DNA of 64,000 nt from Pseudoflavitalea sp. G-6-1-2 (GTDB lineage Bacteria > Bacteroidota > Bacteroidia > Chitinophagales > Chitinophagaceae): contig NZ_JABBGB010000001.1 in assembly GCF_012927185.1 (NCBI RefSeq), positions 434,001 to 498,000 on the forward strand, given 5' to 3'. Both the position numbers and the translations under genes were made by a program. The notes beneath the pieces are model-generated. The model ran no database searches, had not been told where the DNA came from, and worked only from the letters and a program-made list of their open reading frames with translations. Shown here piece by piece: positions 6,869 to 20,013 of this stretch. Numbering within the stretch: position 1 is the first letter of the stretch; the number at the start of each line of letters is the position of its first letter.

Positions 6869-7990
6869 CTATTTCACCGCCTGAATGGCATCGAACAGCG
6901 CGCGGAAGCAAGCTGGTTGCGTTTTGGTTCCCGCCGCTTCATTCTTCACTTTTCCGTAGAATTCGTCCATGAATTGTTCAGCACCTGACCATACAGTTTG
7001 TATCATTCCCTGAAAGTATTGTTTCATTTCAGGGGTAGATCCTTTTCTGAAACTGATCATATCATTCAGTTGCGCAACTGCATTGGCCGGTGTTCGCCAC
7101 GGACAGGTTGCTACACGCAATCCTTTGGCGGCGAAGAGTACAGGCGTTTTATCAGGGCGCTCATAATGCCAGTCGCAGATGAATACATCTTTGGGAATGA
7201 GGTCGATGGCGCGATGCGTATTGTTGAAGCTTCCTTCCCACATGCCGATGCCGGTGGTTTTTCCATCGATCAGTCTGTCGCCCCAGATCCAGAGCTCTCT
7301 TTTATTCTGTCTGAGGTGATCACTGATCTTTCTAACTTCTCCGGCATAGAGTTCGGCTTTGTCTCTGCCGCTGCAACGTTTGCAGCTATCATCGCCGAGA
7401 TAAAATACTTCATCCATGCCTGCATGGAATGCATCGGCTTCAAACACATCACACACTTCGTCTACGAGATCAAAAACAATTTTATGAAGATCGGGATGCA
7501 GCGGACAATAGCTTTTGCAGTAGAGCCCATCTGCATTTGGCCATACATATTTTTCAGGCATTTTCACATGCGGCGTTTCATCGAACTGAGGATACACGCG
7601 CAGCAGGTTATCGATTCTTCCGGCCCAGGATTGATGCCCCAGCAGATTGATCTGTGGTATCACGCGGATCTTGCCCTGCCTGCAGGCAGCTACCAGTTTT
7701 TTTACATCGGCTTTTGAAAGGGCAATCGTGTCGCGCAATTCGGGATGCGACTGAAATTCGTAATTGTAATCAACGCGAAGGATCAGCGTATTAACGCCGC
7801 GCGGAGCAAGTTCTTTTGTAATGAAGTTGGCGAATGCGTCAACACCTGATTTCTTGGGAGCTACAATGCAGAATCCGCGAACGGGGAGCAAAGTATCGAG
7901 GTGTTGTTGTGCAGATGCAGCAAGATTGCATACGATCGTTAGTAAGATAAGCAGGGGGATAAGTGTAAATTTTCTCATACGAATCGACAT
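6869..7990 (-). CDS. secreted family 20 glycoside hydrolase (beta-N-acetylhexosaminidase-like)
   Basis: A 373-residue protein with a signal peptide (about residues 5-27, ending '...ASAQ'). A TIM-barrel catalytic domain carries the GH20 acidic pair Asp193-Glu194 in 'FHAGMDEVFYLG'. GH20 enzymes remove terminal beta-GlcNAc or GalNAc by substrate-assisted catalysis, where the Asp orients the acetamido group and the Glu is the acid/base. The usual N-terminal GH20b domain is missing and the protein is shorter than typical hexosaminidases, so substrate may differ. A second ATG at codon 5 (7978) is an equally good start. It precedes the DUF5009 gene by 25 bases, likely one operon. Confidence 0.85.
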   Translation of the reverse strand: MSIRMRKFTLIPLLILLTIVCNLAASAQQHLDTLLPVRGFCIVAPKKSGVDAFANFITKELAPRGVNTLILRVDYNYEFQSHPELRDTIALSKADVKKLVAACRQGKIRVIPQINLLGHQSWAGRIDNLLRVYPQFDETPHVKMPEKYVWPNADGLYCKSYCPLHPDLHKIVFDLVDEVCDVFEADAFHAGMDEVFYLGDDSCKRCSGRDKAELYAGEVRKISDHLRQNKRELWIWGDRLIDGKTTGIGMWEGSFNNTHRAIDLIPKDVFICDWHYERPDKTPVLFAAKGLRVATCPWRTPANAVAQLNDMISFRKGSTPEMKQYFQGMIQTVWSGAEQFMDEFYGKVKNEAAGTKTQPACFRALFDAIQAVK

Positions 7991-8006
7991 AAAATTTGAA
8001 TTTAAT

Positions 8007-8051
8007 AAAAAAATCTCAGACCATATACTTTCTATGTACAGGATCTGAGAC
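8007..8051 (-). terminator. rho-independent terminator after the DUF6265 gene
   Basis: Arms TCTCAGA (8014-8020) and TCTGAGA (8044-8050) are perfectly complementary and extended by a CC/GG pair with a one-base bulge. On the minus strand the hairpin is followed by a run of seven T, from the A-run at 8007-8013. It ends the message of the gene at 8096-8569. Confidence 0.6.
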
Positions 8052-8095
8052 TTCTGTAATATGTTATGACGATTAAAATCTGATGAACGCAGCAG

Positions 8096-8569
8096 CTATT
8101 TTTTTCGCTCAAACAGAAAGGGGATCGACCTTCCATCTCCTGAAATAGCGGCGTGGAGCTGGTTTCCTTTTAGATGATATTCTATCTTCTTCGGAAAATC
8201 GTGCTGAGGGTTTTCACAAACGAAGTCAACATCAGTTAATGATGTGATAAGAAAAGACACTGGTACATTATCGCCTCTGATTACAGTTGCAACATAGTAT
8301 AGTTTGTTGTCTTTTTCTATGATGGTGAATTTTTCGGAGAAGGTGGTATCCTTTCCATTTAGTGTTACGAACCAACCCGACAGTTCCTGAGCAGATTTTT
8401 TCTCCCACACTTCCTGTCCTGTAGTGCCGGGCTTTGGATTGGTTCTGTTCCATACCCCTGGAAGCCATTCGAGTTTTTTGAAATTCTCAGGCGTGGCTTG
8501 CGGAATTTCCTGCGCCATGGAATATGCAACAGAAAAGAGGAATGCAGCAACGAGAATGGAAGCTTTCAT
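8096..8569 (-). CDS. DUF6265 secreted lipocalin-like protein
   Basis: A 157-residue protein with a signal peptide (1-19, '...YSMAQ') followed by 'KLEWLPGVWNR', 'GQEVWEKKSAQELSGW' and 'CENPQHDFPKKIEYHL'. This is the pattern of the small beta-barrel DUF6265 family ('WLxGxW' plus 'NPxHDFPxxIxY'). No reaction is known for the family; the fold resembles fatty-acid-binding or lipocalin-type barrels. It has its own terminator at 8007-8051 and probably forms a single-gene unit. Nothing in the sequence links it to the kdp genes upstream. Confidence 0.75.
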   Translation of the reverse strand: MKASILVAAFLFSVAYSMAQEIPQATPENFKKLEWLPGVWNRTNPKPGTTGQEVWEKKSAQELSGWFVTLNGKDTTFSEKFTIIEKDNKLYYVATVIRGDNVPVSFLITSLTDVDFVCENPQHDFPKKIEYHLKGNQLHAAISGDGRSIPFLFERKK

Positions 8570-8717
8570 GCTATGTGTTTTTGAGTTGCTTAAATATACG
8601 AAGAGTTGATGAACGCTTCCATGCTACTTAGATAAACGATAGATCGGGATTGCTTTGAGACTAACCGGCTAGCGCAAGATGCGAATTGCTTCGCAACTGG
8701 GTACTCCCGAAGTAAAC
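8570..8717. other. intergenic region, no gene seen
   Basis: Short spacer between the kdp-associated kinase and the DUF6265 gene. A weak GCGAA/TTCGC stem near 8680 lacks a T tract on either strand. No promoter box matching TAnnTTTG was found. Confidence 0.4.
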
Positions 8718-10412
8718 TCAGCCAGCAACAACAGGGAAATCGAAGCCGAATCTGCTTCCTTCTCCTATCCTGCTTTCCACCCAGATATTTCCGCCCTGCG
8801 CTTCGATGAACTCACGTGAGATGGCAAGGCCAAGTCCGGTGCCACTCTTCTCATAATTGCCGGGCACTTTGTAATAGCGATCGAAGATCTTTGTGAGGTA
8901 TTTTTCGTCGATGCCGATTCCGTGATCGCGCACAGAGAACGAAACTTTATCATTTTTGAGAACAGCTTCTACTTCGATCGAAGAAGACTCAGGCGCATAG
9001 CGAATCGCATTGGTGAGAAAGTTGATCATCACCCAGGATGTTTTTTCAATATCAGCCATCACATGCGGCAACGATGATTGTATGCTCGTTTTAAGATGCA
9101 ATTGTTTTTGTTGTGCCTGAAACAATACGGCCTGAACGGCCTGCGTAACTATTTCATCAGGAGGCGACGATTGCAGCTTCAGCTGAATATTGCCAGTCTC
9201 TACCTGACTCATGTTCAGCAGTTCACTGGTTATCTTCAGCAGACGGTCTGCATCATCTTTGATACTGTGCAGCAATTCCTGCTGCTCTTTGTTCATATTG
9301 CCTACCCGCGGATCATCGAGTAGTCTTGCACTCATTTTGATACTCGATATCGGCGTTTTCAATTCATGAGAAACTGTGGCGATGAAATTTGTTTTAGCCT
9401 CATCCAGTTCATGGAAGGGTGTGATATTCCGGAGTACGATCACTTCGCCGATACGCGCATCTTCATTCCGCACTTCGATGCGTTCATTTACGAAGTAACT
9501 TTTTTTGCCGTCGGCAAATATTTCGAGTTCGGGGCGAACTTCATCCTGAAGCAGTGTGCGCATGAGATCGTTGCGGATGGCGATATCAGGCCCATATTTT
9601 CCTACTACATCACGTTCTCTGATTCCGATCAACGATTCTGCCACGGAATTCATAAACAGAATCTGTTTCTTTTCGTCGAAGCCGATAATGGCATCGCGCA
9701 TATTGTTGATCACGGCTTCGATACGGCTCTTCTCAAATTTGATGCGCGCGAGATTGCTATGCTCGTACTCATCTAATTTTTCTGCCATTACGTTGAAGGC
9801 ATTCGCGAGATCTCCGAACTCATCTTTCTGCGACAAATGAATTCTTCTTGAATAATTCTTATTGGCAATTGCGCTGATCCCAGCAGCGAGTTGACGGATT
9901 GGATTGCTGATCACACCGGGAAAATTCACTACCAGCGTAAATGCAAGCAAGGCAAGGATGGTGAAGATAATGGTCATCCAGGTGGCGGCGCTTCCGGTTC
10001 TTTCGCGCGCGAGCTGGTTCTTTCGGAGAATGGCTTCCTGATTGAGATCATTGATCAGCTGAATGCTTTGCCGGATGCCGGCTTTCGCCAGATCGTCATT
10101 TTTGTTGAGACGCAGTTTCTCGAAAGATTGCCTGAGCTGAAGCGTACCTTCTTTTTCTCCGGGCTCTGTAACATTCTTTTCCTGCTGCTCCAGGTTGTTC
10201 TCGAATAAACGCATTGCCAGCGAATCTGTACGAAGCTGCTCCAGCGCCTTCAGCATATTGTTGTTGTACACCAGGGTCTCATAGTTATTTCTCAGCACTT
10301 TGTCTGAGTCCTCTTTCAGCCGGTGAATGGATATGAGGCCGAATGCGCCGAATATCACTATCACCAGAAAAAGGAAACCTATGCCCAGGGTAAGTTTTGT
10401 TTTAAGTCGCAT
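8718..10412 (-). CDS. HAMP/PAS sensor histidine kinase of the kdp operon (transmitter half of a split KdpD system)
   Basis: A 564-residue kinase: transmembrane helix about 9-29, extracytoplasmic segment to about 143, second helix about 145-165, HAMP about 166-218, PAS about 228-330, then HisKA and HATPase. The phosphorylated His349 lies in 'ATVSHELKTP'; the N box 'INFLTNAIRY', G1 'DHGIGID' and G2 'GTGLGLAIS' are intact. It begins one base after the stop of kdpD, so it is part of the kdp operon. In E. coli the KdpD sensor and kinase are one protein; here the kinase is separate and carries its own extracytoplasmic sensor. Its likely partner is the NtrC-type regulator at 18664-20013, which is inference from proximity. 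Confidence 0.88.
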   Translation of the reverse strand: MRLKTKLTLGIGFLFLVIVIFGAFGLISIHRLKEDSDKVLRNNYETLVYNNNMLKALEQLRTDSLAMRLFENNLEQQEKNVTEPGEKEGTLQLRQSFEKLRLNKNDDLAKAGIRQSIQLINDLNQEAILRKNQLARERTGSAATWMTIIFTILALLAFTLVVNFPGVISNPIRQLAAGISAIANKNYSRRIHLSQKDEFGDLANAFNVMAEKLDEYEHSNLARIKFEKSRIEAVINNMRDAIIGFDEKKQILFMNSVAESLIGIRERDVVGKYGPDIAIRNDLMRTLLQDEVRPELEIFADGKKSYFVNERIEVRNEDARIGEVIVLRNITPFHELDEAKTNFIATVSHELKTPISSIKMSARLLDDPRVGNMNKEQQELLHSIKDDADRLLKITSELLNMSQVETGNIQLKLQSSPPDEIVTQAVQAVLFQAQQKQLHLKTSIQSSLPHVMADIEKTSWVMINFLTNAIRYAPESSSIEVEAVLKNDKVSFSVRDHGIGIDEKYLTKIFDRYYKVPGNYEKSGTGLGLAISREFIEAQGGNIWVESRIGEGSRFGFDFPVVAG

Positions 10413-10413
10413 C

Positions 10414-11544
10414 TTATGATAAAATTACAACATCAATGTCAGCAGCGGCCAGTTTAGTGAGCAGTTGGTTGAAAACGGCTGTACTCAGAATCACATTCCA
10501 GATCCGCAAATGGGGTTTGCCGATGCAGATGGTGGTGATCTTTTTCTGCTCGGCAGTTTCGATGATCCCTTTGGCGATATTGGTATGCTCTACTTTGATC
10601 ACCTCTCCGCCCAGTTCGGTAGCGAGTTTGAAATTGTTGATCAGGTGACGTTGCGCTGCGAGTCCGATGCGGTCTCCCGATTCTTTGGGCGTTTGCACAT
10701 ACAGCACATACCAGCGCGAATTGTAGTAAGCGGCGAGCCTGGCTGTTTTACGGATCACCATTTTTGCGATGCTGTGGTTGCTGCTGATGCAGGCCATGAA
10801 CCGCTCCGATCGCGCATTCAGCATGCCTGGCAATTCGCGTTCGATCTTTCCTTCTACCTGTGATGCCACTTCTTTCAGCGCCAGTTCGCGCAGCTGGAGT
10901 ATCTTATCCGATTGAAAAAAATTGGTGAGCGCAGTCTCGATCTTATCCTTTGTATAGATCTTTCCTTCGCGTAAGCGGGTGATCAGTTCATCGGCGGTAA
11001 GATCGATATTCACTACTTCGTCGGCCATCTGCAAAACACTGTCCGGTACGCGCTCCAATACTTCCACGCCCGTGATCTCTTTTACAGCTTCGTTAAGGCT
11101 TTCGATATGCTGAATATTTACGGCGCTCACCACGTTGATGCCGGCATTGAGAATTTCCAGTACATCCTGCCATCGCTTTTCATTTTTGCTTCCTTCGATA
11201 TTGGTATGCGCCAGTTCGTCTACGATCACCACTTCGGGGCGGAGATTCAGAATGGCCTGAACATCCATCTCATCCAGTTCCTTGCCCTTGTAGAACAGCC
11301 GGCTTCGGGGTATTACGGGTAAGCCTTCGAGCAGGTTGTGGGTTTCTTTTCTGTTGTGGGTTTCGATGTAGCCGATCTTTACATCCACTCCATTGCGGAG
11401 CAGGGTATGCGCTTCCTGAAGCATCCGGTAGGTTTTGCCCACTCCGGCGCTCATGCCAATATAGATCTTGAACTTGCCTCTTCGGCTTTGTTTGATCAGA
11501 TCTAAAAAGTGCTGAGGACCATCAGTGGAAGATTCTTCAGGCAT
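10414..11544 (-). CDS. kdpD: KdpD sensor half (KdpD and universal stress domains, no kinase)
   Basis: ATG at 11544 is preferred to a TTG eight codons upstream. The 376-residue product contains the KdpD N-terminal domain (about 17-230) with Walker A 'GMSAGVGKTYRML' and Walker B 'VVIVDELAHTN', then a universal stress protein-like domain (about 245-376). It stops there: the four transmembrane helices, GAF and histidine kinase domains of enterobacterial KdpD are absent. The family senses low potassium or turgor and binds ATP and cyclic di-AMP in some species. The gene is 10 bases from neither operon edge but sits between the porin (34 bases) and the kinase (1 base), consistent with a divided KdpD. 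Confidence 0.9.
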   Translation of the reverse strand: MPEESSTDGPQHFLDLIKQSRRGKFKIYIGMSAGVGKTYRMLQEAHTLLRNGVDVKIGYIETHNRKETHNLLEGLPVIPRSRLFYKGKELDEMDVQAILNLRPEVVIVDELAHTNIEGSKNEKRWQDVLEILNAGINVVSAVNIQHIESLNEAVKEITGVEVLERVPDSVLQMADEVVNIDLTADELITRLREGKIYTKDKIETALTNFFQSDKILQLRELALKEVASQVEGKIERELPGMLNARSERFMACISSNHSIAKMVIRKTARLAAYYNSRWYVLYVQTPKESGDRIGLAAQRHLINNFKLATELGGEVIKVEHTNIAKGIIETAEQKKITTICIGKPHLRIWNVILSTAVFNQLLTKLAAADIDVVILS

Positions 11545-11578
11545 ATGACTGGATTGTACTGTTATCAAATCTACTTGT

Positions 11579-12664
11579 TTAGAAACTCAATGCAATGGCT
11601 GTTGCAACGATAGGACTGGCTTTAGTTGTACTGTTGTTTCTTTTTACGAAGTATTCTTCCTTTCCGTGGAAACTGCGCAGTTCGAGCCTCCATACACAAT
11701 TGGAGAAGAGCTGACGATCGTAGTTTACGCTCCATCCGATAGTCTTGAATCCTTCAGGAGAATTTGTCGCGATGATCACACCATTCTTATCTTCGAAATA
11801 TTCTCCGCGAACAGATACGCTGTTGGTTTTATCCGGACTGTATTTCACAATCACCGTACCGGCATACCAGTTGTTCAGTTTGCTTTTTCCTTTTTCTTTC
11901 TGTTCCATGCCATAATCAAACCCTGCTGTGATGCCGAATTTTTCCGTGACTTGAAATATGCCGTACACATTGTGGTAGTAGCGCATCAGACGAACAGTGT
12001 CTGGTTTATCGTTACCCGCAAAATTGCTGTAGTTGAGCGTGATGGTAGAGTTAGGCTTGTACGTTACCTGCAAACCGAAAGCAGGTGTGGAATTGCCATC
12101 GATGCGCTGAATGCGTTGCCATCCGTTGAGATACATGGCAGCGAGGTACCATTTTTCGTTTTTGCTGGTGTAACCGAGTTTGGTCCCTGCTTCGTAGTAA
12201 GGCGAGTTGTCTGCAACGATGCTTCTTGTGAGTGTCCAGTTATCTTTTCCGACGGCACTTTCAAAACCAATGTGTGAAGGCATGATACCTGCATCTAACC
12301 AGAGATTGGCGTTCTTAGAAAGTTTCACTCCTGCATTTGCTTCATAAATATTTTTCAGCACACCCGGCTCAGCAGCCATGTTTGCATTCAGGTAAGTTCC
12401 TGCTCCGATAGCAATATTCGCACGAACACGATCACCACTGTAAGTTCCTTTGAGGAATGCAAGGTTCACATTCACTTCATTCGCGCGATTGTGACTGTAC
12501 ACAAAACCCGGACGCGTATTGTTCAACGGACGGTTAGCGTCGTAAAGGTAATACGCTTCTGCATATCCGCTGATGCTGAAATTATTCTTCTTTGGTTCTT
12601 CCTGGGCAATGGCCTGCATGCCAATGCTGCATGCAAAGGCGCCAGCCAACATAAACTTTTTCAT
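11579..12664 (-). CDS. outer membrane beta-barrel porin of the kdp operon (BBP2/OmpL-like)
   Basis: A 361-residue protein with a signal peptide (1-20, '...AIAQ') and alternating amphipathic strands ending in a C-terminal aromatic 'ATAIALSF', the usual outer membrane insertion signal. 'SISGYAEAYYLYDANRPLNN' at the start matches the putative beta-barrel porin-2 family. It lies between kdpC (24 bases) and kdpD (34 bases) on the same strand, so it is co-regulated with potassium uptake. It probably lets potassium or small solutes through the outer membrane under potassium limitation; that role is inference from operon position, which I recall as common in Bacteroidota kdp loci. Confidence 0.85.
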   Translation of the reverse strand: MKKFMLAGAFACSIGMQAIAQEEPKKNNFSISGYAEAYYLYDANRPLNNTRPGFVYSHNRANEVNVNLAFLKGTYSGDRVRANIAIGAGTYLNANMAAEPGVLKNIYEANAGVKLSKNANLWLDAGIMPSHIGFESAVGKDNWTLTRSIVADNSPYYEAGTKLGYTSKNEKWYLAAMYLNGWQRIQRIDGNSTPAFGLQVTYKPNSTITLNYSNFAGNDKPDTVRLMRYYHNVYGIFQVTEKFGITAGFDYGMEQKEKGKSKLNNWYAGTVIVKYSPDKTNSVSVRGEYFEDKNGVIIATNSPEGFKTIGWSVNYDRQLFSNCVWRLELRSFHGKEEYFVKRNNSTTKASPIVATAIALSF

Positions 12665-12688: not shown

Positions 12689-13252
12689 CTATTTTAATTT
12701 GTCTAATGCAATGTTTAATTGTAACACATTTACGGTAGAAGTTCCCAACATTCCGAGCAATGGTTTCTTAGTGTGCTGATCTACAAGTGCATTCAAGGTT
12801 GCTTCATCAAGGTTACGGATAGCTGCAATGCGTTTCACCTGAATTTTTGCAGCAACAGGAGAAAGATGCGGATCGAGGCCGCTGCCAGATGCAGTTACCA
12901 GTTCAGCAGGTATCGATGCTTTTGCGATACCGGGATTGTGCACGAGGAAAGTATCGATACGATCCTGCACAGTTTTCAGGTAATCAGCATTGGTTGCTCC
13001 TTTGTTTGAACCGCCCGACCCTGCCGGGTTGTAGCCGACTGCAGAAGGTCGTCCCTGAAAGTATTTATCGTCGGAGAACTGCTGTCCGATGTTTGCATAT
13101 CCGACAACTTTTCCATTCACAGAGATTGTTTCGCCCTTGCCACCACCCTTGCTCATTTTGGCAATCATCGCAATAGCTGCGGGGTAAACAACAGCCAGCA
13201 ATACGATCATCACCAATGTCATTTTTAATCCGGGGAGCAAATATTTTTTCAT
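12689..13252 (-). CDS. kdpC: potassium-transporting ATPase subunit KdpC
   Basis: A 187-residue protein with one N-terminal transmembrane helix (about 8-29) and a periplasmic domain. Diagnostic segments are 'YFQGRPSAVGYNPAGSGGSN', 'ELVTASGSGLDPHLSP' and 'RIAAIRNL', all typical of KdpC. The subunit assists ATP binding by KdpB and stabilises the KdpFABC complex in the inner membrane. Length is normal for the family. It starts 18 bases after kdpB and is followed by the porin gene. Confidence 0.96.
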   Translation of the reverse strand: MKKYLLPGLKMTLVMIVLLAVVYPAAIAMIAKMSKGGGKGETISVNGKVVGYANIGQQFSDDKYFQGRPSAVGYNPAGSGGSNKGATNADYLKTVQDRIDTFLVHNPGIAKASIPAELVTASGSGLDPHLSPVAAKIQVKRIAAIRNLDEATLNALVDQHTKKPLLGMLGTSTVNVLQLNIALDKLK

Positions 13253-13270: not shown

Positions 13271-15322
13271 TTACATAAAGAAGGCCAGTACCAGATCGAT
13301 CAGTTTGATGCCGATGAAAGGCACTATGATTCCACCAAGGCCATAGATCAGCAGGTTCCTGCGCAGCAGTGCATTTGCGCCAATGGGTTTGTATTTCACT
13401 CCACGCAGCGCCAATGGAATCAGCATCGGAATAATGATGGCATTGAAGATCACGGCAGACAGTATCGCACTCTGAGGACTGGCCAGGTGCATGATATTCA
13501 GGGATTGTAAAGCGGGTATGGATGTGATGAACAATGCCGGAACAATGGCGAAGTATTTCGCAACATCATTAGCGATGGAGAAAGTAGTGAGCGTGCCACG
13601 GGTCATCAGCAACTGCTTTCCGATCTCAACGATCTCGATGAGTTTGGTAGGATCGTTATCCAGATCCACCATATTGCCTGCTTCTTTTGCAGCCTGTGTT
13701 CCGCTGTTCATGGCAACACCAACATCGGCTTGCGCGAGTGCAGGTGCGTCGTTGGTTCCATCGCCCATCATTGCAACGAGCTTGCCGCTCTGTTGCTCCT
13801 GTTTGATGTAATTCATTTTGTCTTCGGGACGTGCCTCGGCAATGAAATCATCCACGCCCGCTTTGTGTGCGATGTATTTTGCAGTGAGCGGGTTATCGCC
13901 GGTGACCATTACAGTTTTCACTCCCATTTTGCGAAGGCGCTCAAACCTTTCCTGGATGCCGGGTTTGATGATGTCCTGCAATTCGATGGTACCGGTGATA
14001 GATCCATTCAGACTTACTACGAGCGGAGTACCGCCATTCATTGCAATTTCCTTCACTTTGTTTTCGATGGCAGCAGGAACCGGCGTTCCATTCACATGCG
14101 TGATCTTTTTGATGGCATCGAATGCACCTTTGCGGATCTTCGTTCCATCTGCTTTATCGATACCACTGGTGCGTGTTTCGGCAGTGAAAGGAATGAATCT
14201 GATATCATTGTTCGACTGAGGAACTTTCACACCTTTTGTCTGTGCCAGTTCGATGATCGATTTCCCTTCGGGTGTTTCATCGGCAATGGAACTCCACACA
14301 CATGATTCAATGAAAGCGTTTGCTTCCACTCCATCAGCAGGCCAGAAGTTAGTAGCCTTGCGGTTTCCGATGGTGATGGTACCTGTTTTATCGAGCAGCA
14401 GGGTATCGAGGTCACCCGCTGTTTCTACTGCTTTACCACTCTTGGTGATCACATTCGCGCGAAGCGCACGGTCCATACCTGCGATGCCGATGGCAGATAA
14501 TAATCCGCCGATGGTAGTTGGTATCAGACAAACGAAGAGCGAAATAAATGCTGCGATAGTGATGGTGGTATTCGCGTAATCTGCAAAAGGTTTCAGCGTT
14601 ACGCACACAATCACGAAGATCAGTGTGAAGCTGGCCAGCAGAATGGTCAACGCAATTTCGTTTGGCGTTTTCTGACGTGATGCTCCTTCTACGAGTGCGA
14701 TCATTTTATCGAGGAAACTTTCTCCCGGCTCGGTAGTTACTTTCACTACGATCCTGTCTGAGAGCACTTTTGTTCCACCGGTTACAGACGATTTATCGCC
14801 ACCCGATTCGCGGATCACGGGAGCAGATTCACCCGTGATAGCACTCTCATCAACAGTTGCAATGCCCTCGATTATTTCACCATCCATTGGAATGGTATCG
14901 CCTGCTTCGCACACAAAAAGATCGCCTTTGCGCAGTTGGGAAGAACGGATCATTTTGATTTCGTTCAGATGGATCTCTCCCACTACTTCGATCTTTTTGG
15001 CCATCGTGTCTTCGCGTGTTTTACGAAGACTGTCGGCCTGCGCCTTGCCTCTGGCTTCCGCGATGGCTTCTGCGAAGTTGGCAAAGAGCAGTGTGAGCAG
15101 CAGTATAAGGGTTACTGTGATATTGTATGCAAGGCTTCCCTGGCCAGCTTCGCCGGCAGCAATCCAGCAGCATACTGCAATCATGATGGCTGTTCCGATC
15201 TCGACCGTGAACATCACCGGATTACGGAACATCAGCACAGGATTGAGTTTCACGAAGGCCTGCTTCAATGCAGTGCCTACCAGTTCGCGGGGGAATAATT
15301 TATTTTGATCGATGCGTTTCAT
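13271..15322 (-). CDS. kdpB: potassium-transporting ATPase ATP-binding subunit KdpB
   Basis: A 683-residue P-type ATPase. The actuator motif 'TGES' lies in '[11 protein letters not shown]', the phosphorylated Asp311 in 'LLDKTGTIT', and the hinge in '[18 protein letters not shown]'. Transmembrane pairs near residues 35-90, 220-275 and 580-680 complete the fold. KdpB hydrolyses ATP to drive potassium uptake through KdpA. Length and motifs are complete, with no sign of decay. It is 30 bases behind kdpA and 18 bases ahead of kdpC. Confidence 0.97.
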
Positions 15323-15352: not shown

Positions 15353-17071
15353 TTAGGAATGCATGCTGAAATATTCTGCCAATGGTCCGAGTGCCAGTGC
15401 AGGGAAGAAACTCAGTGCATTGATGATGATGATCACCGTGAATGTAACAGCGCCGAATGTAACGGAGTCTGTTCTCAGCGTACCACCAGATGCAGGAATG
15501 AATTTCTTGTTGGCCAGCAATCCGACAATCGCAACCGGGCCGATAATTGGAATGAACCTTGCCAGCAGCAGCACTATACCCGTTGAGACATTCCAGAAAA
15601 TATTGTTGTCTCCCAATCCCTCAAAACCACTGCCGTTATTGGCGTTGGAAGAAGTGAACTCGTACAGCATTTCAGAGAATCCGTGATAGCCGGGGTTGTT
15701 GAGCCAGCTCTCCGGTTTCACCGCCCACTCGGCTCCGGCATGTGTGGCAAAGAGATATGCAGCAACCGCAGTTCCTGCTTTTACAAGGAATGCTGAAAGA
15801 AGTGTTACGAATGCTGCGATCTTTACTTCGCGTGCTTCCACTTTATGGCCCATGAATTCCGGGGTTCGTCCAACCATCAATCCTGATATGAAAACAGCGA
15901 TGATGATATAGATGAGGTAGTTGAGAATACCCACGCCACATCCTCCATAAAACGCGTTGATCATCATAGCGAGCAGCTGCATCATGCCGGAGAGCGGCAT
16001 GGAACTGTCGTGCATGGAGTTGATGGAGCCGGTTGAAATGATAGTAGTGACAATGCTCCAGTACGCAGATGCAGCCGGACCGAACCTCACTTCTTTTCCT
16101 TCCATTGCCCCGGTTGCCTGGGCAATGCCCATCTTTGCAATTTCAGGGTTGCCATTCATTTCCCAGTTCATCGTAGGAATGAGCAGCAGCAAGAGGCCAA
16201 CGGTCATTACACCGAAGATCACATACGCAAAACGTTTGCGGTTGATATAGAAACCCAGCGCGAAGATGAGTGCAACAGGAATTACAACCTGCGCAATCAC
16301 TTCAGTCATATTGGTGAGGTAGTTGGGATTCTCCAGCGGGTGTGTTGAATTGGCGCCGAAGTATCCTCCACCATTCGTTCCGAGATGTTTGATAGCAATG
16401 AAACCCGCTGCTGGTCCGCGTGATACCTGCACTGAATCTCCCTGCATAGTAACGATGCTGTCCTTCGCATCATAGCTGGCAGGTGTTCCGTTGAATGCAA
16501 GAATCAATGCCATGATAAAACAGAGCGGCAGCAATATTCTTGTAATGGTCTTTGTGAAGATGCTCCAGAAGTTGCCGAGGTTGGTGGTGGTCTTTTCTTT
16601 CAATCCGTTGAACACACCGATCAGTGCGGCAATACCTGTTGCTGCACTTACAAACTGCAGAAACATCAGCACAAATGTCTGTGTGAGGTAAGTAGCCCCT
16701 GATTCGCCGGAGTAGTGTTGCAGATTGCAGTTCACCAGAAAACTGATGGCGGTGTTGAAAGCGAGATCCGGCGATTGATCCGGATTGCCATCAGGATTCA
16801 TCGGCAGATGTCCCTGAAAGAGCAGCAGAAAAAATGCATACACCAGCCAGATCATGTTGATGGTGAGCATCGCTTTCAGAAATTCTTTCCAGTTCATTTT
16901 CCGTGAAGGATCGATTCCGCAAAAGCGGTAGATGATTCTTTCTAGCGGATTCATAAAATCGGTGATAGTGCGCTCTCCTTTGAATATGCGGGCGATGTAT
17001 TTCCCCAGTGGGAATGCCAGCAATATGGTAATCAGAAAAGTAACTATCACTCCGAATAATTCTGTGTTCAT
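15353..17071 (-). CDS. kdpA: potassium-transporting ATPase potassium-binding subunit KdpA
   Basis: A 572-residue membrane protein of the potassium-channel-like superfamily with about ten transmembrane segments. 'GTNGGGYFGANSTHPLENP' near residues 230-248 is the second selectivity filter region; 'NNGSGFEGLG' is the fourth. KdpA binds and conducts potassium in the KdpFABC complex. Length matches the family. It follows kdpF after 18 bases, and its order F-A-B-C is standard. Confidence 0.97.
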   Translation of the reverse strand: MNTELFGVIVTFLITILLAFPLGKYIARIFKGERTITDFMNPLERIIYRFCGIDPSRKMNWKEFLKAMLTINMIWLVYAFFLLLFQGHLPMNPDGNPDQSPDLAFNTAISFLVNCNLQHYSGESGATYLTQTFVLMFLQFVSAATGIAALIGVFNGLKEKTTTNLGNFWSIFTKTITRILLPLCFIMALILAFNGTPASYDAKDSIVTMQGDSVQVSRGPAAGFIAIKHLGTNGGGYFGANSTHPLENPNYLTNMTEVIAQVVIPVALIFALGFYINRKRFAYVIFGVMTVGLLLLLIPTMNWEMNGNPEIAKMGIAQATGAMEGKEVRFGPAASAYWSIVTTIISTGSINSMHDSSMPLSGMMQLLAMMINAFYGGCGVGILNYLIYIIIAVFISGLMVGRTPEFMGHKVEAREVKIAAFVTLLSAFLVKAGTAVAAYLFATHAGAEWAVKPESWLNNPGYHGFSEMLYEFTSSNANNGSGFEGLGDNNIFWNVSTGIVLLLARFIPIIGPVAIVGLLANKKFIPASGGTLRTDSVTFGAVTFTVIIIINALSFFPALALGPLAEYFSMHS

Positions 17072-17089: not shown

Positions 17090-17170
17090 TTAAAATTTTT
17101 CGGGTTTCATTAGTACGTATACGAGGTAGATGAATACAACTGCGGATACGACGAGCAAGGCTGTCATCAT
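17090..17170 (-). CDS. kdpF: KdpF-like small membrane subunit (26 residues)
   Basis: ATG at 17170 and TAA at 17092-17090 enclose 26 codons, directly ahead of kdpA (18 bases). The peptide starts 'MMTALLVVSAVVFIYLVYVL' and ends with 'MKPEKF': one hydrophobic helix plus a short 'KPE.F' tail, the hallmark of KdpF, which stabilises the KdpFABC complex ('LxxxLxxYLxxALxxPExF' in other bacteria). A second ATG immediately follows the first. The gene is too short for most automated callers. Confidence 0.88.
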   Translation of the reverse strand: MMTALLVVSAVVFIYLVYVLMKPEKF

Positions 17171-17190: not shown

Positions 17191-17274
17191 TTACACTTTT
17201 TCAAAAAAATCGATCGATTTGAAGAACAGCCAGAAGCATAACAGAAAGGCTGCGATCAGCAGAATTGTTAACAT
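17191..17274 (-). CDS. 27-residue single-helix membrane peptide upstream of kdpF
   Basis: ATG at 17274 to TAA at 17193-17191. The peptide opens with 'MLTILLIAAFLLCFWLFFKS' and ends with 'IDFFEKV'. One hydrophobic helix, a Cys-Phe-Trp centre and an acidic/aromatic tail give a convincing membrane miniprotein. It lies 20 bases ahead of kdpF and is compactly packed in the same operon. I recall similar unnamed short peptides before kdpF in other Bacteroidota but cannot name a family. It may be an additional accessory subunit of the potassium pump. Confidence 0.6.
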   Translation of the reverse strand: MLTILLIAAFLLCFWLFFKSIDFFEKV

Positions 17275-17286
17275 AATTTGTTGGGT

Positions 17287-17385
17287 TTACATCAGAGACC
17301 GGAGCAGCACCCCTAATACCAGAATCGCTACATAGATCGCGGGGATCAGAATATGCAACCGGATGCGGAGGAACTGTCTTTTCAT
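17287..17385 (-). CDS. 32-residue membrane peptide, first ORF of the kdp operon
   Basis: ATG at 17385 is only about 12 bases behind the start predicted by the sigma-54 type element at 17407-17423; the in-frame extension upstream to 17499 would run through that promoter, so it is rejected. The peptide has a basic N-terminus ('MKRQFLRIRLH') and a hydrophobic helix ('ILIPAIYVAILVLGVLL') ending 'RSLM'. It is 12 bases ahead of the next micro-ORF. Its function is unknown; either a small subunit or a leader peptide is possible. Confidence 0.5.
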   Translation of the reverse strand: MKRQFLRIRLHILIPAIYVAILVLGVLLRSLM

Positions 17386-17406
17386 GATTATTTGTTTAGC
17401 AGAGAT

Positions 17407-17423
17407 TGGCAAAGGGCAGGCCA
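17407..17423 (-). promoter_or_regulatory. sigma-54 type -24/-12 promoter of the kdp operon
   Basis: On the minus strand the sequence is TGGCCTGCCCTTTGCCA. It has TGGC with GG at -24 and TTTGC with GC at -12, exactly 12 bases apart as required, against the consensus TGGCACG-N4-TTGCA. Predicted start is an A near 17397, 12 bases before the first micro-ORF. A nearby NtrC-family activator (18664-20013) and inverted repeats at 17526-17578 fit this reading. Confidence 0.55.
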
Positions 17424-17525
17424 TCAGATCGTGCCAGTTCAACATTTTGCTGTAACCCTTATCAGACGGGCATTTGCTGGCATATAATATTTCCGGCACA
17501 GATCAGCACTATTCCCAAACCCTAT

Positions 17526-17578
17526 CATTCTGAAAAGGTGATTTTCAAAATGGAAGGGGTCAGAATGTCCAAATCACC
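17526..17578. promoter_or_regulatory. interlocked inverted repeats, candidate enhancer for the sigma-54 activator
   Basis: Two perfect 8-base inverted repeats interlock: CATTCTGA (17526-17533) with TCAGAATG (17560-17567), and GGTGATTT (17537-17544) with AAATCACC (17571-17578). Their centres are 11 bases apart, one helical turn. A smaller TGAAAA/TTTTCA repeat occupies 17531-17547. The block is about 129-181 bases upstream of the predicted kdp start, the usual distance for NtrC-type activator sites. It also lies upstream of the divergent reductase gene, so it could serve that instead. Confidence 0.5.
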
Positions 17579-17652: not shown

Positions 17653-18660
17653 ATGAAAGCAGTACAGTTGAGACAGTTCGGCATTGAACATTTGCATTTG
17701 ACCAAACTGGATACGCCTGAATTCGGAGACAATGAAGTATTGGTACGCACAACTGCAGTAGCGTTAGAGTATCATGATCTGCTCGTAGTGGAAAACCTTA
17801 TTCCTTTCGGCATTTCGCTTCCGCATGTTCCGGCAACGGAAGCAGTGGGAATTGTAGAGGAAGCAGGATGCAAGGTTACGCGCTGGAAAAAAGGAGATCG
17901 CGTGATCATTCCATTCATTCCGAGATGGGAAGCAGGGCACAACACACCCCATCACGATGAACTAAGAACCGGATTCTCCGCTCCCGGTGTTCTCGCAGAA
18001 TTCACTGTGCAGCCGGAAAACACACTCGTGCGCACGCCCTCAAACTTAACAGATGCAGAAGCTGCCCCCCTTTCTGTTGGCGGATTGACCGTCTGGGCGG
18101 TACTCGCAGAACAGGCGAATATCCGTGCAGGGCAAACTATTCTCGTACAGGGAACCGGAGGTGTTTCACTGATTGCATTGCAGATAGCCAAAATGTTCGG
18201 ACTGAAAGTGATTGCCACTACCAGCAGCAAAGAGAAGGAACAAAAGCTGCGCACACTCGGCGCCGATGAAGTAATCAATTATACGGAGCATCCGGAGTGG
18301 AGCAAAGAAGTGAAACGATTAACCGGAGGAATTGGAGTTGATGTAACACTCGATGTGGCAGGCACAGCCACCATTGCGCAAAGCATCCTTTCGGTGAAGA
18401 AACATGGCTTTGTCGGATTGATCGGTTTACTCACAGGTACCCAGCTCAACATCGATATCATTCCACTTATCACCAATTACCTGAGACTGCAATCTTACTC
18501 TGTTGGCAATGCCGCGCAGCTGACGGATTTTGTTCAGGCCATCGAAAAAAACAATCTGAAACCTGTGATAGATAGCGTGTACCCGCTCGATAAAGTGCAG
18601 AACGCATTCTATCGTTTCAAAGCAGGAGATGTATTCGGCAAAATTGTGATCCAGTTCTGA
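17653..18660 (+). CDS. zinc-independent medium-chain NAD(P)-dependent dehydrogenase/quinone reductase
   Basis: A 335-residue MDR protein: GroES-like N-terminal domain (about 1-125) and Rossmann domain (about 130-280) with the nucleotide loop 'GTGGVS' at 167-172. The catalytic zinc cysteine position in the N-terminal domain reads 'ALEYHDL', and the four-cysteine structural zinc loop is absent, so the enzyme is likely zinc-free, as quinone oxidoreductases are. Substrate cannot be deduced. It is divergent from the kdp operon and convergent with the sigma-54 activator, whose stop is three bases away. Confidence 0.87.
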   Translation: MKAVQLRQFGIEHLHLTKLDTPEFGDNEVLVRTTAVALEYHDLLVVENLIPFGISLPHVPATEAVGIVEEAGCKVTRWKKGDRVIIPFIPRWEAGHNTPHHDELRTGFSAPGVLAEFTVQPENTLVRTPSNLTDAEAAPLSVGGLTVWAVLAEQANIRAGQTILVQGTGGVSLIALQIAKMFGLKVIATTSSKEKEQKLRTLGADEVINYTEHPEWSKEVKRLTGGIGVDVTLDVAGTATIAQSILSVKKHGFVGLIGLLTGTQLNIDIIPLITNYLRLQSYSVGNAAQLTDFVQAIEKNNLKPVIDSVYPLDKVQNAFYRFKAGDVFGKIVIQF

Positions 18661-18663
18661 GGA

Positions 18664-20013
18664 TCAGCTGAGATGGTATTCTTCGATCTTGCGATAGAGT
18701 GTAGTGAGACCGATGTTCAGCAATTTAGCCGCTTCGGTTTTGTTGCCTTTTGTATGATTGAGCACCCGCTGAATATGCAGCTTCTCCACGCTTGCCAGTG
18801 AGAAGGCAGAGAGTGTATGCCCCTCTTCTGAAACAGAGACTGCCTGCTGGAGATCGAGCGGGAGATTGTCTACGGTAAGTTCGGTTCCATCAGCGAGAAT
18901 TACAGATCGTTCCATTACGTTCTTCAGTTCGCGGATATTTCCTTTCCATGAATGACGCTTCAGGTGTTCGACAAAATCTTTACTCATGCCAGTGATACGG
19001 GCATTTGTTTTGGCTGCAAATAGAGATAGATAATGTGATGCCAGTGCAGGGATATCTTCTTTTCTGTTGTTCAAAGAAGGGAGCTGTATAGTGAAAACGT
19101 TGAGACGATAATAGAGGTCTTCGCGGAAGCGGCCTGCATCTGCTTCTTCCTGCAATCCGCGGTTAGTGGCTGCGATGATGCGCACATTTACGCGGGTAGG
19201 TTTTGTATCACCCACTTTAATGAATTCGTTCGTTTCGAGAACACGAAGCAGTTTGCTTTGGAGATCGATATGCATTTCGCCGATCTCGTCGAGAAAGAGC
19301 GTGCCGTTGTGCGCTTCTTCGATCAGTCCTTTTTTATCTTTCATTGCACCGGTGAAGGCTCCGGCTTTATGGCCGAACAATTCGCTCTCCAGCAGGTCTT
19401 TGGTGAAAGCGCTGCAATTCAGTGGCATAAAGGGTTGTGTAGCACGCTTGCTGCCATTGTGAATAGCCTGGGCAAATACCTCTTTGCCTGTTCCGGTTTC
19501 GCCGAGCAGCAACACAGTAGCATCCGTAGGTGCCACTTTCTTTGCTAAAGCAATCGCTTCTTTGATGCTGGCAGATGAGCCGATGATATTTTCAAATCCG
19601 TATCTCTTGCCAACCTGTTGCTCCAGTTGTGCAACACGTTGTCTCAGTTTCACCTGCTCCATGGCGCGGTTGAGGAGCGGAATTATTTTGTCGTTATCAT
19701 CTCCTTTGGTGATGTAGTCGAAGGCGCCATTTTTCATGGCCTGAACGCCATCAGGGATATTGCCGTAGGCAGTGAGCAGTATAATTTCTGTACCGGGATA
19801 TTTCGCATGAACAGTGGCTGCGTATGCAACACCGCTGCCGTCGGGAAGTTTTACATCGCTCAGAACAACATCGATCGATTCGCGCTCCAGCAGTTTGCCT
19901 GCAGATTTCAGGTCAGCTGCTTCGAACACCTGGAAGCCTTCCAGACTGATGATGCGTTTAAGAAGACTGCGGAGTTTTTCCTCGTCGTCGATCAAAAGAA
20001 TATTTCCTGACAT
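18664..20013 (-). CDS. NtrC-family sigma-54-dependent response regulator
   Basis: A 449-residue regulator with three domains: receiver (1-120, phosphoacceptor Asp53 in 'VVLSDVKLP'), AAA+ sigma-54 interaction domain (about 141-370, Walker A 'GETGTGKE' at 171-178 and the sigma-54 contact loop 'GAFTGA' at 218-223), and a Fis-type helix-turn-helix ('NKTEAAKLLNIGLTTLYRKI') at the end. It contacts sigma-54 polymerase from enhancer sites after phosphorylation. No dedicated kinase gene adjoins it; the orphan kinase at 8718-10412 in the kdp operon is the best candidate partner. It starts 24 bases after the secreted glycosidase gene and may share its transcript. Confidence 0.93.
   Translation of the reverse strand: MSGNILLIDDEEKLRSLLKRIISLEGFQVFEAADLKSAGKLLERESIDVVLSDVKLPDGSGVAYAATVHAKYPGTEIILLTAYGNIPDGVQAMKNGAFDYITKGDDNDKIIPLLNRAMEQVKLRQRVAQLEQQVGKRYGFENIIGSSASIKEAIALAKKVAPTDATVLLLGETGTGKEVFAQAIHNGSKRATQPFMPLNCSAFTKDLLESELFGHKAGAFTGAMKDKKGLIEEAHNGTLFLDEIGEMHIDLQSKLLRVLETNEFIKVGDTKPTRVNVRIIAATNRGLQEEADAGRFREDLYYRLNVFTIQLPSLNNRKEDIPALASHYLSLFAAKTNARITGMSKDFVEHLKRHSWKGNIRELKNVMERSVILADGTELTVDNLPLDLQQAVSVSEEGHTLSAFSLASVEKLHIQRVLNHTKGNKTEAAKLLNIGLTTLYRKIEEYHLS

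Follow-up and report, generated by a model that had tools for sequence, protein, structure and literature searches.

How is the kdp operon switched on in the window (the whole 64,000-nucleotide stretch of DNA analysed here), where no gene for the usual type of regulator lies alongside? In Escherichia coli, kdp is governed by the one-piece kinase KdpD, the OmpR-type regulator KdpE and sigma-70. The present locus resembles that arrangement in having a two-component system with a KdpD sensor domain on kdp, and differs from it in that the KdpD part has no kinase and no OmpR-type gene is near. The genome was found to contain 12 Trans_reg_C genes, none closer to kdp than about 150 kb, in agreement with the first-pass annotation, which had reported the lack of a KdpE. 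The locus consists of the following genes:

18664..20013, minus strand, NtrC-type response regulator, candidate kdp activator (domain matches and comparison)
17653..18660, plus strand, divergent dehydrogenase between the regulator and kdp, with no role in the switch seen so far
17287..17385, minus strand, first mini-ORF, 32 codons, without Pfam match
17191..17274, minus strand, second mini-ORF, 27 codons, kept in relatives, without Pfam match
17090..17170, minus strand, kdpF (PF09604)
15353..17071, minus strand, kdpA
13271..15322, minus strand, kdpB
12689..13252, minus strand, kdpC
11579..12664, minus strand, BBP2-type outer-membrane porin (PF07642)
10414..11568, minus strand, KdpD sensor part without kinase, 384 aa (best match NF038185, under the curated cut-off)
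8718..10412, minus strand, histidine kinase (4HB, HAMP, PAS, HisKA, HATPase), probably paired with the regulator

Domain searches of the 384-aa sensor part (10414..11568) found no KdpD kinase domain, and no Rfam family reached its gathering score within the 64-kb window. The second mini-ORF, which precedes kdpF, encodes a membrane-type peptide ending in FFKSIDFFEKV; by a loose pattern it recurs in 57 of 115 upstream regions, kdpF being present in 106 of the same 115. In the named collection, the closest KdpA matches belong to a Chitinophagaceae MAG (L015, 91%), Pseudoflavitalea rhizosphaerae (L016, 88%) and a Pseudobacter MAG (L017, 85%).

In order to identify what controls these genes, kdpA loci were compared among the best 80 of 350 relatives, and an arrangement of NtrC-type regulator and sigma-54 type promoter was encountered in most of the sampled loci. 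The earlier idea of a potassium response rewired to sigma-54 is a conjecture as regards any prior KdpE-type state. Sequence comparison brings out a conserved palindrome and promoter box, a phased distance between them, covariation of palindrome letters with the regulator helix, and genetic linkage of regulator and operon. On this evidence, the kdp operon is very probably under a sigma-54 promoter that is activated from tandem palindromes by the 18664-20013 regulator.

The promoter element is located directly before the first mini-ORF:

17407..17423, minus strand (read 17423-17407), -24/-12 (sigma-54 type) promoter box TGGCCTGCCCTTTGCCA, GG-N10-GC, kept in relatives

Both the element, with its 12-base GG-to-GC spacing, and a predicted start A about 12 bases ahead of the first mini-ORF had been described previously and were recovered here (A at 17397, ATG at 17385). 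By itself the box is not significant against chance, because 10 places in the window, counting both strands and the site itself, score at least 14 of 16.2 against the consensus; it is the comparison across species that makes it significant. Alignment of the closest relatives revealed a retained GG...TTTGCC box, and GG at -24 and GC at -12 are conserved among orthologous kdp promoters. The frequency of such scores in the window and the existence of a second spacing class could suggest that the box is a chance match and that kdp is transcribed from a housekeeping promoter. Given that a GG/GC box stands at a phased distance in most relatives, and that L016, L018, L019 and L024, the closest relatives with an aligned box, all keep it, this is highly unlikely. 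The proposal of a sigma-54 type promoter before kdp thus gains support from boxes kept in relatives at clustered distances.

The region further upstream had been proposed to contain an enhancer made of two interlocked 8-base inverted repeats. Three elements overlap there:

17520..17538, minus strand, enhancer palindrome proximal to the promoter, CCTTTTCAGAATGATAGGG, with its centre at 107 bp from the -24 GG
17540..17558, minus strand, distal, weaker enhancer palindrome CCCTTCCATTTTGAAAATC
17526..17578, no strand assigned, two interlocked 8-base inverted repeats, outside the conserved register

The 8-mers are indeed present (17526-17533 with 17560-17567, and 17537-17544 with 17571-17578). By themselves they are not significant against chance: shuffling the region 500 times gave two or more such repeats (gap of at most 40) in 5% of cases, and among 218 tiles of the window 12 contain them. 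In alignments before kdp in relatives the box is kept and the 8-mers are not; alignment of the closest relatives exposed a TTCCATTTTG/CAAAATGGAA element instead, corresponding to a 19-bp palindrome, CCCTTYCA-N3-TGRAAGGG, that is often tandem. The 8-mers were rejected as operator, as conservation selects the tandem 19-bp palindromes, which overlap them in a different register. The idea of an upstream enhancer is supported by the comparison, with the tandem palindromes at 17520-17558 in place of the 8-mers.

The palindrome was scanned for in 79 regions reaching at most 900 bp upstream of kdpA, namely 78 loci plus the window, the short loci L015 and L029 being left out. The form CCCTTCCA-N3-TGGAAGGG was matched at 13 or more of 16 positions in 49 of the 79 regions, versus about 0.2% of 1580 dinucleotide shuffles, and the kdp upstream palindrome is thus significant through cross-species comparison. 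In many loci a second, weaker copy is visible by eye 20-22 bp further upstream. The two palindromes of the window are weak, each matching the strict consensus at 12 of 16 positions, and a letter-agnostic dyad search picked another dyad in the window rather than those at 17520-17558.

When Y and R were allowed, a palindrome scoring at least 13 was found in 58 regions, window included. The best box lay 84-89, 94-97 or 104-110 bp from the palindrome centre in 52 of these 58 (8% in shuffles) and scored at least 14 in 44 of them (1.5% in shuffles; 3/58 on the opposite strand). The distances thus form clusters about one helical turn apart, the window falling at 107 bp. A simple periodicity statistic carried little weight (0.62-0.68 for periods of 10.5-12); the case for phasing is based on the three tight clusters. 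These distance windows were set after seeing the first data set and then tried on further kdpA loci of the order (40 loci, L161-L200, from which L183, L185, L190 and L199 were dropped as repeats of the first set, and L181 also). Of the remaining loci, several of them close relatives and hence not 35 independent tests, 23/35 fell inside and 12 missed (L165, L171, L172, L174, L182, L184, L188, L189, L192, L194, L197, L198). The dropped L181 may be a new locus, and its distance of 97 bp would give 24/36 if counted. Chryseolinea (L043), Chryseosolibacter (L044) and Parachryseolinea (L051) have a palindrome-to-box distance of 63-65 bp.

The protein that would read these sites was described previously as an NtrC-family regulator encoded at 18664-20013, an assignment borne out by receiver, sigma-54 activator AAA+ and Fis-type HTH domains and by a GAFTGA loop in the translation. 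An ortholog lies within the kdp locus in 59 of the 80 loci. The other 21 comprise three on short contigs, 14 whose genomes were searched whole, and L056, L078, L081 and L084, outside that search. All 14 genomes searched whole contain an ortholog (59-68% identity), clearly above the next match save in G254, where the next match reaches 406 bits. Around six orthologs remote from kdp, no palindrome scoring at least 14 was detected. Four of these cases are informative: the kdp loci L079, L075, L030 and L040 keep an R-type palindrome and the corresponding regulator regions (L150, L151, L153, L156) are without one. The other two kdp loci (L051, L036) carry other site types.

The histidine kinase at the end of the operon had been regarded as an orphan, a view that is probably mistaken given some of the relatives. 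In L042 and L032 the kinase gene precedes the regulator by 33-36 bp; in L070 the two are convergent and abut, and in L033 and L049 they are about 1 kb apart. Because of this adjacency or proximity, the kinase is probably the partner of the regulator. Kinase and regulator genes stand side by side after kdp in L032 (15547-18590) and L042 (15548-18588), loci in which a KdpD sensor part was not detected. Upstream of kdp, L042 contains a further copy of the regulator.

Comparison of the recognition helix of the regulator with the letters of the palindrome revealed that they change together. Regulators with an LYRK helix go with the half-site core YCA, those with LYNK (L054, L057, L088) with CAG, and those with LYQK (L043, L051 and, separately, L161) with CGG. 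Also, helices of the form xxATLYRK occur mostly with CTCA or ATCA, and ATTTLYRK (L173, L178, L179) with TGCA. Association was tested on letter-agnostic dyads in which 7 or all 8 pairs form, position 2 is C and position 18 is G, which kept 58 of 102 labelled loci; the hand-placed sites of L036, L058, L050 and the window were left out, and L044 is outside the labelled set. Among the 58 loci, Gln or Asn occurs with G beside the spacer in 4/4 cases and Arg with A in 51/54, while at site position 5 Ala is accompanied by C or A in 8/10 and Thr by T in 42/48. Only 1 and 0 of 2000 permutations matched these associations, in a test that ignores ancestry and in which many loci are close relatives. In a regulator tree built without the last 50 residues (the DNA-binding end), with only the window and L050 classed among the hand-placed sites, Gln has two separate origins and the combination of Ala and CTCA has five (the L191 group, L061, L165, L187/L184 and L168), node support being mixed and as low as 0.36 at L161/L165. 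Exceptions are L025 and L169 (Ala, TTCA) and L175 (Thr, ATCA). For L036 and L058 (LYNK), related sites could be placed manually, and in L166 (LYAK) a search for a palindrome site found none. Since the palindrome letters shift with the recognition helix in several lineages, the regulator appears tied to the site, and covariation together with linkage favors the 18664-20013 product, as suggested earlier, as the candidate protein reading the enhancer.

In order to gain insight into the wider distribution of the palindrome, the strict pattern CCYTTYCA-N3-TGRAARGG was searched in 248 genomes of the order. Being narrow, this pattern fails to detect most kdp genomes, among them that of the window; it was found in 17 genomes, once in each, versus a single occurrence of the backward pattern. 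KdpA matches, a few of them weak, occur in 49 of the 248. Of these 17 palindromes, eight are located 315-526 bp from a kdpA match and all eight adjoin a regulator ortholog, another (L117/L154) is beside such an ortholog in a genome where kdpA has no match, and the remaining eight have no visible link to kdpA or regulator. In L154 (about 7200-10400) the palindrome is followed by TGGTACGTCCTTTGGCA at 107 bp, a 31-codon ORF and an ORF that, by reading, resembles an ECF sigma factor. With up to two mismatches, the pattern matches 8 places across the genome of the window (3 for the control), and only the kdp place has a phased box scoring at least 14 with an intact GC. On the dehydrogenase side of the kdp palindrome, the match CGGCACTTACCTTTACA reaches 14 points and is without the G of the -12 GC.

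Palindromes upstream of genes could also be intrinsic terminators of the preceding gene instead of enhancers. In many loci the palindrome has an A-run before it and a T-run behind it, the terminator layout of hairpin and T-run behind a co-directional gene is present in many relatives with such a gene, a co-directional regulator gene lies just upstream in 28 of 58 loci, and among the strict palindromes near neither kdpA nor regulator (8/17), the one in L155 closely follows a co-directional gene. However, in 20 of the 58 loci, window included, the first gene upstream that is 600 nt or longer is oriented away, and the window, L019, L024, L026 and L039, all with a divergent neighbor, have no T-run and yet keep palindrome and distance. 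Also, the palindrome stays with kdp in the four loci whose regulator gene is elsewhere, and its letters follow the regulator helix. A terminator was rejected for the window itself, where the neighbor is divergent and no T-run is present, and as a general explanation it is very unlikely. The enhancer is the better reading because loci with a divergent neighbor and no T-run keep palindrome and distance, and because of the helix covariation; in some species the palindrome may double as a terminator.

If the palindrome acts as enhancer, sigma-54 control of kdp could still be exerted by a different NtrC-type activator of the genome, which contains seven strong sigma-54 activator genes, that is, six besides the 18664-20013 gene; furthermore, the kdp-type regulator is not near kdp in some relatives. 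Against this, the site letters track the helix of the 18664-20013 type in several lineages, with the Gln/CGG core at two separate tree places, and the L154 genome, in which kdpA has no match, keeps regulator, palindrome and box together. Binding by another activator is very unlikely.

The 12-base GG-to-GC spacing does not extend as a general feature to the relatives: among 66 promoters passing the filter, 27 have it (GG-N10-GC) and 39 have 13 bases (GG-N11-GC). Sigma-54 is generally strict on this spacing, and a 13-base spacing is unusual for it. A 2025 survey of sigma-54 regulons gives a consensus with 5-7 spacer bases (PMC12316311). Either the Bacteroidota sigma-54 tolerates TTTGGCA one base further, or the box is partly misread. 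Matches versus reversed-pattern controls over 39 genomes (hand sums) were 110/42 for YGGCAY-N4-TTGGCA, 329/121 for YGGCAY-N5-TTGGCA and 308/122 for YGGCAY-N5-TTGCA; with ratios of about 2.5-2.7 for all three patterns, genome-wide counts favor neither spacing. In keeping with sigma-54 use, the window's genome has two full-length rpoN genes (L001 1492-2982 and L002 1486-2898), the second of which is followed by another NtrC-type regulator gene. The arguments are evenly balanced on a broader reading in which the Bacteroidota kdp enhancer is a case of regulator-operator co-evolution, its letters having changed several times in parallel with a few helix residues of a dedicated NtrC-type protein, its distance having moved by whole helical turns, and its promoters having two spacings, perhaps one per RpoN paralog.

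At glnA, NtrC acts from dimer sites arranged in tandem, 100-150 bp ahead of a -24/-12 promoter. The kdp region is alike in its tandem sites at such a distance before a -24/-12 promoter, and differs in its operator letters, its two-turn tandem spacing and its target, potassium rather than nitrogen genes. In the switch that we infer, with its signal, phosphotransfer, looping, operon extent and sigma-54 dependence, low potassium would lead a split sensor (10414-11568 plus the kinase 8718-10412) to phosphorylate the 18664-20013 regulator. The latter would bind the tandem palindromes centred near -132 (17520-17538) and -152 (17540-17558), build an AAA+ ring, loop to the polymerase and open the promoter. 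Sigma-54 RNA polymerase would then transcribe the two mini-ORFs, kdpF, kdpA, kdpB, kdpC, the porin, the KdpD sensor part and the histidine kinase from 17407-17423. Because the operon includes sensor and kinase, the switch would act back on its own components.

NtrC-type control of kdp is already known from an unrelated bacterium; the Bacteroidota member, the operator and the covariation are new additions. In Desulfovibrio vulgaris, kdp has been reported, in the available parts of two papers, to be under the NtrC-family regulator DVU3334 with a split KdpD (PMC3333781, PMC4641369). According to those parts, the two systems share an NtrC-family regulator with GAFTGA for kdpFABC and a separation of KdpD functions, in D. 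vulgaris into a sensor-UspA ORF and a kinase ORF. The gene set that marks DVU3334-type control of kdp, with an NtrC-type regulator, a KdpD sensor part and a kinase encoded apart from it, is found here too, a likeness that concerns the gene set as far as these sources describe it. D. vulgaris differs in belonging to another phylum, in having regulator, sensor and kinase inside the operon and, from the same excerpts, in two further regulators that target kdp. Searches of open-licence PubMed Central papers yielded no prior report of sigma-54-controlled kdp in Bacteroidota, nor did the accessible parts of papers on Geobacter kdp, sigma-54 and Chryseobacterium; a term search of the main text of the 2025 survey, as far as available, found neither kdp nor potassium (PMC12316311).

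The proposed switch would place emergency potassium uptake of many soil and water Bacteroidota, without a neighboring KdpE, under all-or-none sigma-54 control. Also, the operator and its co-varying helix could serve as a system for studying how NtrC-type regulators choose DNA, and the tolerance of enhancer phase and -24/-12 spacing.

With regard to the occurrence of kdp itself, kdpA is present in five genomes within the genus of G182, and three kdpA copies or pieces are clustered on one contig each in G132 (contig 42) and G163 (contig 181). The L056 contig, labelled Beijerinckiaceae, carries a Chitinophagaceae-like kdp cluster (relative to the window, 74% for KdpA and 61% for the kinase); the bin may be mislabelled.
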